This document shows, in pieces, positions 180 through 33,675 of a DNA stretch of 50,716 nt (within the stretch, counting starts at the first letter, position 1; each line of letters begins with the position of its first letter). The position numbers and the translations under genes were made by a program. Below the pieces are notes generated by a model. The model had not been told where the DNA came from and made no database searches. It worked only from the letters and a program-made list of their open reading frames with translations. This stretch comes from Flavobacteriales bacterium (GTDB lineage Bacteria > Bacteroidota > Bacteroidia > Flavobacteriales_D > Crocinitomicaceae), in the NCBI GenBank assembly GCA_947491305.1, contig CANLIL010000014.1:1-50716 (forward strand). Reading direction: 5' to 3'.

Positions 180-445
180 ATTACACGTATATTCTCCACT
201 CTATTTCAATTAATAAATTCTATATTGGTGCTTCAGAGAACCCTTCGGAACGATTGAAAAAGCATAATGCTAAAAACAAAGGATTTACCAACCAATCTAA
301 TGATTGGGAAATTGTCTTCTTAAAACCATTTGAAACCAAAACTGAAGCTTTATCTTTTGAAAGACAAATCAAACGTTGGAAATCTTCAGTGAAAATTCAA
401 CAACTAATTAATAGCTCAGTTGGTTTAGAGCATCCCGATGCATAG
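176..445 (+). CDS. small GIY-YIG nuclease, C-terminus encoded by a tRNA remnant
   Basis: An 89-residue single-domain GIY-YIG endonuclease of the YhbQ/UPF0213 size class. Visible family marks are the GIY strand (YYTYIL, residues 2-7), the YIG strand (FYIG, 15-18), the conserved arginine in SERLKKHN (24-31) and the metal-binding glutamate in SFERQIKRW (60-68). These predict a DNA-nicking or cutting enzyme. The last nine residues (SVGLEHPDA) are translated from a D-arm and replaced anticodon arm of a degenerate tRNA-Val copy, so the C-terminus is chimeric. The ATG lies in the right end of a 69-bp direct repeat and only 17 nt after the tRNA terminator; no promoter is evident, so expression may depend on read-through. 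It is the only protein gene in the tRNA-linked array and is a candidate mobility (homing-like) enzyme, which is inference. Small GIY-YIG proteins are otherwise of unclear function. Confidence 0.85.
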   Translation: MYYTYILHSISINKFYIGASENPSERLKKHNAKNKGFTNQSNDWEIVFLKPFETKTEALSFERQIKRWKSSVKIQQLINSSVGLEHPDA

Positions 446-514
446 CAATCGGGAGGGTCGGGGGTTCGAGCCGAAACGAAGTGAAGACCAGCGAAGCTAA
501 TCCCTCATCTCCCA
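412..514 (+). pseudogene. degenerate tRNA-Val copy with insertion in the T-loop
   Basis: Positions 412-432 are identical to the D-arm side of the intact tRNA-Val (59-79), 455-469 equal its variable/T-arm 5' part (97-111), and 499-514 equal its T-arm 3' strand and acceptor 3' strand. The acceptor 5' strand is absent (GIY-YIG coding sequence stands there). The anticodon arm is replaced by the inverted repeat CCCGAT...ATCGGG. About 30 nt, containing CGAAACGAAGTGAAG, interrupt the T-loop between TTCGA and ATCCC. It cannot be a functional tRNA, but its 5' part serves as the 3' end of the GIY-YIG reading frame. Confidence 0.85.
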
Positions 515-521
515 CTCTGAT

Positions 522-556
522 AAAAGCATTATTCGTTAGAATGATGCTTTTTTTTT
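522..556 (+). terminator. cassette terminator (type B, unit 1)
   Basis: Hairpin AAAAGCATTATTC / GAATGATGCTTTT followed by a T run. It sits directly after a tRNA 3'-end copy, mimicking the tRNA-terminator order of the intact gene. Confidence 0.8.
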
Positions 557-686
557 GTTTTAACGAATCTGAGTTTACTCAAGAGAGGAAAAACAAAAAA
601 TAAGCAGCGAAACGAAGTGAAGCAATGCTTTTATCCATTGCACGTCGGGAAGAAGGGAACTTTAATCCCTCATCTCCCACTCTGAT

Positions 687-720
687 AAAAGCATCATTCA
701 CTAGAATGATGCTTTTTTTT
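687..720 (+). terminator. cassette terminator (type B, unit 2)
   Basis: Hairpin AAAAGCATCATTC / GAATGATGCTTTT plus T run. Compared with unit 1 the left arm has changed (TTATTC to TCATTC), which improves pairing with the unchanged right arm. The stem is therefore maintained. Confidence 0.8.
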
Positions 721-827
721 GTTTAAGCGAATCTGAGTTCACTCAAGAGAAGGAAAACAAAAAATAAGCAGCAGAATGAAGTGATGCAATGCTTTTATCC
801 ATTGCACGTCGGGAAGATGGGGACTGT

Positions 828-896
828 AATCCCTCATCTCCCACAAAGCTTCACAGAAATGTGAAGCTTTTTTTTTGTGAAAAATTTATATTATGT
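828..896 (+). repeat. 69-bp direct repeat, right copy
   Basis: Identical to 111-179. It contains the fourth copy of the tRNA 3' end (828-844) and the second type A terminator. After it the sequence continues as ordinary intergenic DNA, presumably what once followed the intact tRNA gene. Confidence 0.9.
845..876 (+). terminator. type A terminator, copy 2
   Basis: Same hairpin and nine-T tract as at 128-159. It ends the whole tRNA-Val array. Confidence 0.85.
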
Positions 897-982
897 TAAG
901 TCTTACTCGTAATGACAGATTTATTGGCTTCAACAACATCAGCCGTCAAAATGAGTTTAAAACCCTTAACAAAACTAACTTC

Positions 983-33412: not shown

Positions 33413-33593
33413 AAAGTTTGACTCGAAAACTCGACTGGATTACATTTCCAGTCTGCGCGACGTGCAGTGGATCTTCGCACCTGTGCGCTGCGCGCACGGT
33501 TGCGTTTTAATTTGTTCCTCGTTCAAACTGAAAGTTTGACTCGTTTCAAATTAAAAACGCACCTGTCCTATCGAACAAGTGCGTTGATCAGAG
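33413..33593 (-). repeat. tRNA-linked cassette downstream of tRNA-Leu
   Basis: Read on the minus strand this starts one base after the tRNA-Leu discriminator with CTCTGATCAACGC, then a terminator hairpin (33553-33587), then ACGAGTCAAACTTTC, GAACGAGGAACAA, the 15-mer ATCCACTGCACGTCG (33472-33458), GCGCAGA (host acceptor is GCGCACG), a T-arm mimic GACTGG...CCAGTC and AATCCAGTCG, the host T-arm 3' strand (33441-33432). It corresponds step by step to the tRNA-Val units, with a period of 168 bp. Past it CGAGTCAAACTTT recurs (33425-33413), apparently the start of a truncated second unit. No gene is present between 33267 and 33593. Confidence 0.75.
33553..33587 (-). terminator. tRNA-Leu terminator (cassette type)
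   Basis: Minus-strand hairpin AACGCACTTGT / ACAGGTGCGTT followed by TTT. Its position and outer shape match the type B terminators after tRNA-Val, with different but paired bases. Confidence 0.8.
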
Positions 33594-33675
33594 TGCGCAC
33601 GACTGGATTCGAACCAGCACACCTAATGGCACCACCCCCTCAAGATGGCATGTCTACCAATTTCACCACGTGCGC
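33594..33675 (-). tRNA. tRNA-Leu (anticodon GAG)
   Basis: Minus strand: acceptor GCGCACG pairs with CGTGCGC. Anticodon stem CCATC/GGTGG with loop TTGAGGG gives GAG, reading CTC/CTT. Class II variable arm and T-arm GCTGGTTCGAATCCAGT follow. Discriminator A; CCA not encoded. Confidence 0.96.

Follow-up and report, generated by a model that had tools for sequence, protein, structure and literature searches.

tRNA-linked repeats of Flavobacteriales as possible read-through RNAs with a candidate recognition loop at the tRNA 3' end

The closest described systems are the tRNA-linked repeats (TLRs) of Escherichia coli. According to the published account (PMC8144298), TLRs have been known since 1978 and follow tRNA or rRNA genes, with between one and five repeats at a locus; 22 of them occur at ten loci, and their terminal 18-19 bp correspond to the end of the upstream tRNA or rRNA. 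The same account states that an earlier functional claim for one TLR was retracted and that the repeats had no known function before the work on the rRNA-linked ones. Three of the latter are described there as processed read-through sRNAs which bind Hfq and CsrA and lie between two rRNA terminators; in RrA, RrB and RrF, a stretch of 18 bp repeats the 3' end of the RNA encoded upstream (PMC8144298).

Here we describe a family of repeats of similar plan, starting from a stretch of 50,716 nt of a Flavobacteriales genome (the window), in which ARAGORN detected 3 tRNAs. The units are present behind seven tRNA isoacceptors, at a narrow spacing and with a segment matching the host tRNA; they have a covarying stem, P1, and a second stem, P2, units are gained or lost behind the tRNA and they multiply in tandem. 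We favor, with a probability of about 0.5, the reading that they form a Flavobacteriales family of tRNA-linked repeats whose read-through RNA would carry a candidate recognition loop at the tRNA 3' end.

The first array of the window lies on the plus strand behind tRNA-Val(TAC) (about 52-127; ARAGORN; Rfam RF00005, 74.8 bits). A terminator read from the sequence follows the tRNA immediately (127-159) and has a second copy at 844-876, as part of an exact 69-bp direct repeat of terminator and flank (111-179 and 828-896). Copies of AATCCCTCATCTCCCA begin at 111, 499, 664 and 828 (spacings 388, 165 and 164), and CTCTGATAAAAGCAT is found at 515 and 680. The preliminary description had placed CTCTGAT after the discriminator base. 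This is correct for tRNA-Leu and for the displaced Val 3' ends of the window, but not for the working tRNA-Val, which is followed by CAAAGCTTC.

The array opens with a unit missing from that description, composed of tRNA-Val, the terminator, an 89-aa open reading frame for a small GIY-YIG nuclease (176-445; Pfam PF01541, E 5.4e-17) and a displaced, rearranged tRNA-Val copy (412-514) with its D-arm at 412-431, a replaced anticodon arm, an insert in the T-loop and its 3' end at 499-514. The C-terminus of the nuclease runs into this copy and is read from its D-arm, so that sequence once belonging to a tRNA now codes for part of the protein tail. Within 432-498, the hairpin CCCGATGCATAGCAATCGGG takes the place of the anticodon arm, and about 29 nt are inserted in the T-loop between TTCGA and AATCC; a similar hairpin fills a short tRNA-end unit elsewhere (L021).

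Two non-coding units follow. Two Val units had indeed been recognized, at 499-827, but their boundaries are 515-679 and 680-843, as 499-514 is the tail of the GIY-YIG unit. Unit 1 (515-679) comprises CTCTGAT, a terminator hairpin, a body, the conserved 15-mer ATCCATTGCACGTCG (633-647), an imperfect inverted copy of the tRNA-Val 3' end (647-659), previously taken for an acceptor/T-arm mimic and here assigned from sequence and from the host match across genomes, and a direct copy of the same end (664-679). The left arm of its stem P1, GATAAAAGCATT (519-530), doubles as the 5' arm of the terminator hairpin and faces the right arm AATGCTTTTATC (624-635), both based on sequence and family covariation. 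In stem P2 (548-600), placed by folding and family counts, the T-rich 3' side of the terminator pairs with AAAACAAAAAA (about 589-600). Unit 2 (680-843) has its 15-mer at 797-811, its inverted copy at about 811-823 and its direct copy at 828-843; the direct copy measures 16 nt in both units. Positions 1-127 of the window and another contig of the same genome (C56) end on the same tRNA-Val, and contigs C17 and C32 share another tRNA. Such tRNA-linked repeats seem to break assembly, so that copy numbers are lower bounds.

The second host is tRNA-Leu(GAG) on the minus strand (about 33593-33675; ARAGORN and Rfam). Its unit (33432-33593) runs from CTCTGATCAACGC, starting at 33593, to the 15-mer (33472-33458), the inverted copy GCGCAGACTGG (33458-33448) and AATCCAGTCG (33441-33432). 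Thus the same series stands behind tRNA-Val and tRNA-Leu, with three exact copies of the 15-mer in the window (633, 797 and 33472 on the minus strand), AATCC beginning 31 nt after the start of the 15-mer in all three units, and periods of 165, 164 and 168 (33609-33441 for Leu), as first reported. The distal tRNA copy of the Leu unit is only 10 nt long, AATCCAGTCG being followed by AGTTTTCG and not by an acceptor 3' strand. Its supposed acceptor mimic therefore cannot form a minihelix with itself.

With up to three mismatches, the 15-mer had 4 matches in the window against 1.19 expected, a number reached by 3 of 100 shuffles. In the whole genome (2.53 Mb), 11 matches with up to two mismatches were obtained against 2 for the reversed control. 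Two of the 8 sites beyond the window are a tandem pair behind tRNA-Arg(ACG), 132 bp apart and with TGCACGTTT; at the loci of the other six, ARAGORN found no tRNA. We matched 31 tRNAs in this genome and read the downstream sides of the plus-strand tRNAs, of 9 of the 12 other minus-strand tRNAs and of tRNA-Leu. A unit of like plan and different sequence was present behind tRNA-Met and behind a tRNA read by eye as Arg(TCT), and the start of another behind a Ser-looking tRNA at a contig end. Other units ending in a copy of the host tRNA 3' end, several of them tandem and without the 15-mer, were seen in the same genome (L021/L022 and L033), at tRNA-Val in G018 and G019 (L279, L285) and at tRNA-Leu in G021 (L186). 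The unit plan is broader than the 15-mer family, and a search based on the plan should find more.

The expectation that the series would recur at further tRNA genes was borne out in the own genome and in relatives. The motif TCCAYTGCACGTC was detected in 15 of 26 genomes of the genus, at 37 places (1 coding), and its reversed control in none; the 11 genomes lacking it include several incomplete ones. Of the 200 genomes of the family, 46 contain ATCCAYTGCACGTC; they belong to 7 of 24 genera, and the reversed control had no match here either. When at least one site per genome was fetched, a same-strand tRNA lay within 1200 bp upstream of the motif in 14 of the 15 genus genomes (thus in 14 of 26) and in 36 of the 46 family genomes (36 of 200). 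Unit-like sequence with no tRNA in the fetched stretch, which in some cases is a contig end, was observed in G007, G067, G100, G143, G161, G171 and G196, and coding matches only in G074, G133 and G176. At the order level, 54 of 299 genomes had a match and one had a control match. All 16 sites of the 14 matching genomes beyond the own family were fetched: true units were present in G205, at tRNA-Arg(TCT), and in G269, at tRNA-Arg(TCG), and in the remaining 12 genomes the sites are inside open frames of 199-666 aa. The longest open frame spans this same range over the coding matches, whereas five true units have values of 80-102 aa. Among named genomes, whose labels are not fully reliable, a scan returned 31 stretches, 24 of them labelled Flavobacteriales, Flavobacteriia, Crocinitomicaceae or Cryomorphaceae, two Chryseobacterium, and one each Sphingomonadales, Polynucleobacter, Chitinophaga, Saprospiraceae and Bacteroidetes.

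Altogether 102 distinct sites were collected. For 69 of them, a tRNA on the same strand lies no more than 1200 bp away: Lys (18), Val (16), Leu (16), Arg(TCT) (13), Arg(ACG) (3), Arg(TCG) (2) and Arg(CCG) (1). In 51 of these 69 the 15-mer is located 112-133 nt from the tRNA end. The other 33 sites were classified by eye as contig-edge (15), coding (6) or without a nearby tRNA in the fetched stretch (12). The 15-mer alone is an insufficient marker, as it also occurs inside protein genes (L051, L078, L096, L098, L099 and L161, 6 of the 102 sites). As units were found by exact patterns and alignment, diverged ones were missed. At L162, L053, L077, L097, L100, L160 and L262, unit copies stand behind a short or degenerate tRNA 3' end, and the fetched stretch holds no complete tRNA; at L077, L160 and L262 a similar stretch (CAAATCCTCCAYCAAA..AGTT) precedes this end. 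The tRNA-linked units are real and widespread in this bacterial group.

The segment between the 15-mer and the distal tRNA copy had been described as a mimic matched to the host. Taken alone, the window does not raise this match above chance: the longest inverted run is 5 nt for Val (reached by 1546 and 1579 of 2000 shuffles) and 7 nt for Leu (135 of 2000). Across genomes the match holds. In 48 distinct host/segment combinations from 68 sites (one truncated site was dropped), the longest contiguous pairing of the segment with the host acceptor 3' strand averaged 4.48 bp, against 3.62 (sd 0.12) with permuted hosts, and its identity with the acceptor 5' strand 3.54 against 2.64, neither being reached in 5000 permutations; shared descent inflates these and all other host-match statistics. 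The own host exceeded the mean of other amino acids in 43 of the 48 combinations. Among tRNA-Leu units, segments follow the G3/C3 version of the acceptor in 7 of 8 cases, with one tie, and for Arg(TCT) and Lys many values are tied and only a weak signal is seen within the isoacceptor. Half of the combinations (24 of 48) lack the distal tRNA end and still match their host (4.88 against 4.07, 0 of 5000); the 24 with a near-complete distal copy gave 4.08 against 3.29 (0 of 5000). Recurrence across genomes and the host permutation together speak against chance and against two decayed tRNA duplications.

What the segment copies is illustrated by a tRNA-Leu locus (L134), where reverse-complementing GCCCACGACTGG gives exactly the tRNA 3' end CCAGTCGTGGGC, and the tRNA's own T-stem 5' strand is GCTGG. 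Also, segments often have GGGATC where the T-arm has GGGTTC. On these grounds we take the host segment to represent the host tRNA 3' end in inverted orientation rather than a minihelix; a direct copy, which starts with AATCC, often comes after it. For Val, Lys and part of the Arg units, pairing of the inverted with the direct copy can yield an acceptor stem and a T-stem.

The covarying stem, also absent from the preliminary description, joins the nucleotides behind the tRNA with those before the 15-mer. Across 37 distinct first units, the position following GAT and the one facing it ahead of the 15-mer read C-G in 9, A-T in 14, G-C in 8 and T-A in 1; 5 were not Watson-Crick, 2 of these being G-T. 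In an alignment of 36 units, 93.5% of P1 cells are paired, with changes on both sides at 8 of 12 pairs; the values for P2 are 80.1% and 6 of 15 pairs. None of 500 shuffles reached P1 and P2 jointly on any of five measures, and all slid alignments were lower in cells paired and in covariation score. The terminator hairpin, which is present in the minimum-energy fold of the window units, shows both-side changes at 3 of 8 pairs, and G-U or no pair at the variable base where P1 compensates. Since this hairpin competes with P1, formation of P1 would require read-through and refolding. CTCT and the 15-mer stand opposite each other; they are non-complementary, yet conserved over three families and seven tRNAs.

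Over 108 stems of 50 units, with stems found symmetrically, G-T mismatches outnumbered A-C mismatches 70 to 29. P1 alone has 3 against 4, so the excess stems from the other stems. Selection on the RNA of the tRNA strand would produce such an excess, and strand-biased mutation of transcribed DNA could do so too; nor are the units independent. The joint fold of tRNA and unit was more stable than the separate folds in all six picked examples. In only two of them (L134 and L143) the best joint fold is a single long hairpin holding the tRNA 3' end, and in the two Val folds the tRNA 5' strand pairs with the distal copy instead. At gathering score, the tRNAs were the sole Rfam matches, both in the window and at five related loci, and no unit there matched any family; RtT RNA was absent among 29 Rfam matches at E ≤ 10 for window positions 440-900. 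A self-cleaving ribozyme, considered because some copies read CTGATGA, was dropped as the last-but-one base is the covarying one. Against phage records, positions 480-900 had a best E of 0.4 among the matches listed (20 of 21, E ≤ 10).

The strain comparison proposed at the outset revealed both occupied and empty tRNA loci. Behind tRNA-Val, G008 has 558 bp (a GIY-YIG unit and one further unit) that are extra relative to G003, in which the flank follows the tRNA within a few bases; identity between the two is 93% over 121 bp of flank and 76% over 904 bp upstream. Behind tRNA-Leu, G022 has about 70 bp more than G018, starting with CTCTGAT and read as a unit remnant, between surroundings 94% identical upstream (701 bp) and 92% downstream (542 bp). 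Other members of the genus have decayed copies or other terminators behind the tRNA. Units are thus present or absent immediately behind the tRNA, by gain or loss. This agrees with the suggestion of elements that insert at tRNA 3' ends and rebuild them as far as the position is concerned. Close behind tRNA-Val of G003, at the place taken by the GIY-YIG and 15-mer units in G008, lies an open frame (L275) whose start resembles that of a tyrosine recombinase. The tRNA-Val 3' end may be a general integration hotspot.

Among the 26 small GIY-YIG loci examined, which are those with loci returned and not all in the genus, 8 start at most about 70 bp from a same-strand tRNA, against 0 of 4 loci of long GIY-YIG proteins; one further small locus is about 320 bp behind tRNA-Asp. 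The small genes whose start is no farther than about 70 bp from the 3' end of tRNA-Val, Met or Leu are those at 176-445 of the window, L043 (contig C5 of the own genome), L206, L208, L209, L214, L216 and L223. As a required mover, the GIY-YIG nuclease is not supported, since units occur in four draft genomes without an intact small GIY-YIG match (G009, G010, G012 and G023). Neither is a Y1 transposase, five drafts with units having no Y1_Tnp (PF01797) match (G007, G008, G011, G019 and G023).

In the reading that we favor, a typical unit consists of CTCTGAT and an intrinsic terminator behind the tRNA, two or three hairpins, the 15-mer, the inverted copy of the host 3' end and often the direct copy. 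A minority of transcripts would read through the tRNA terminator. In the longer RNA, the segment behind the tRNA would pair with the segment before the 15-mer to form P1, and the inverted copy could pair with the tRNA 3' end or with the direct copy, which would bring CUCU opposite the 15-mer in a conserved internal loop at the tRNA 3' end. This loop is the likely recognition site of a putative protein or nuclease. In the released RNA, the direct copy may act as a 3' processing site of tRNA-like type, an idea already put forward for E. coli RrB. This reading is weighed down by the competition of the terminator hairpin with P1, by the full hairpin with the tRNA 3' end appearing in just 2 of 6 joint folds, and by the 11 of 26 genus genomes devoid of the motif. 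A more far-reaching version is a switch that captures the tRNA 3' end: upon terminator read-through, the inverted copy would pull the acceptor and T-stem 3' strand into a long hairpin, and the loop, placed exactly at the tRNA 3' end, would recruit a factor. We consider this version improbable. If true, read-through would inactivate or re-route that one tRNA, each unit being fitted to its own tRNA, and the units would constitute a cis-acting class of bacterial RNA regulating single tRNAs, with the E. coli TLRs as a candidate parallel.

The main rival, which we hold to be possible although on the unlikely side, assigns no function to the units. Slippage would duplicate tRNA 3' ends, and template switching would re-template the imperfect palindrome made of tRNA end and unit; with the tRNA arm under selection, it would overwrite the inverted arm, yielding host match and covariation. 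Quasipalindrome template switching is documented in bacteria (e.g., PMC7202029). It could also keep the arms of imperfect inverted repeats complementary. Such a process accounts for the host match where the distal copy is absent, for the tandem periods, for decayed and absent copies, and for the further units of unrelated sequence found at the ends of tRNA-Met and tRNA-Val. What it explains poorly is the CTCT/15-mer loop, which template switching should erase and which is nevertheless conserved although non-complementary; the excess of G-T over A-C mismatches over all stems also speaks against it.

The units might instead be non-autonomous mobile elements. Their transfer from one tRNA gene to another would depend on a GIY-YIG nuclease, an HUH/Y1 transposase or some other recombinase that is encoded outside the element and recognizes the folded T-arm of the tRNA or the 15-mer loop. 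Occupied and empty sites fit this view, as do the copies at L162 and L053 with only a short tRNA 3' end, the GIY-YIG unit of the Val array and the proximity of small GIY-YIG loci to tRNAs. However, some draft genomes with units have no intact small GIY-YIG match and some no Y1_Tnp match, as indicated above, the bodies have diverged strongly from one tRNA to the next, an indication of old residence, and no target duplication is defined except the tRNA end; we judge such mobility to be decidedly improbable. Very improbable, in our view, is the functional tRNA-like minihelix, which would serve RNase P, RNase Z, a synthetase or the CCA enzyme as decoy or substrate. It draws on the possible acceptor and T-stem pairing in Val, Lys and some Arg units. 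Against it, the distal 3' strand is absent from half of the combinations, which are host-matched all the same, the T-loop signature is altered (e.g., GGGATCTTTAATCCC), units of the window and of five other loci have no Rfam tRNA match, and at L134 the 5' side agrees with the complement of the tRNA 3' end instead of repeating the 5' strand of the T-stem. The acceptor and T-arm minihelix is thus not supported in the form first proposed.

We compared the units with the known systems. In E. coli K-12, a direct tRNA 3' copy not belonging to the next tRNA gene was found behind 4 of 16 tRNA genes examined: tyrV, argV, argZ (16 nt, exact) and argQ (15 nt), that of tyrV being tandem. The tyrV unit also contains the tRNA 3' end in inverted orientation (10 nt, 3 of 2000 shuffles), as does, less clearly, the argV unit (8 nt, 49 of 2000); nothing comparable was seen in the argZ and argQ units. 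By blastn, two E. coli TLR units showed no homology beyond chance to four sets of the present units (best E 0.21). Among the matches listed in open-licence literature, there was no report of such units in Bacteroidota.

The present repeats appear as a TLR-like family from a different phylum, apparently unrelated to that of E. coli, in which units of similar plan stand behind seven tRNA isoacceptors and one arm visibly follows the host. Their natural variants separate the conserved part (the 15-mer loop), the covarying part (P1) and the host-following part (the inverted copy), and as there are many such variants, the question of TLR function becomes testable by comparison. Also, repeats behind tRNA genes tend to fall at the ends of draft contigs, so that copies are undercounted. 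Certain integrative elements insert at tRNA 3' ends and restore them. Like these, the Val units have a tRNA 3' copy on both sides and empty sites exist; unlike these, the units measure about 120-165 bp, have no integrase gene, and combine one body common to many tRNAs with host-specific ends. With the TLRs of E. coli, including the 178-bp repeats of tyrT/tyrV (rttR) and those of argVYZQ, they share the position behind tRNA genes. A terminal direct copy of the host 3' end, as in the TLRs, is near-complete in 24 of 48 combinations, with 16 nt in the Val units and 10 nt in the Leu unit of the window. They differ in that they start with a terminator, have the 15-mer and a covarying stem, and often lack the direct copy. 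With RrA, RrB and RrF, as these are described, they share the order of terminator, unit, tRNA end and terminator, whereas those repeats lie behind 5S rRNA, are reported to be transcribed and bind Hfq and CsrA, and the present units are known from DNA. In plan, without sequence homology, the present units resemble TLRs, and they are probably structured read-through RNAs.
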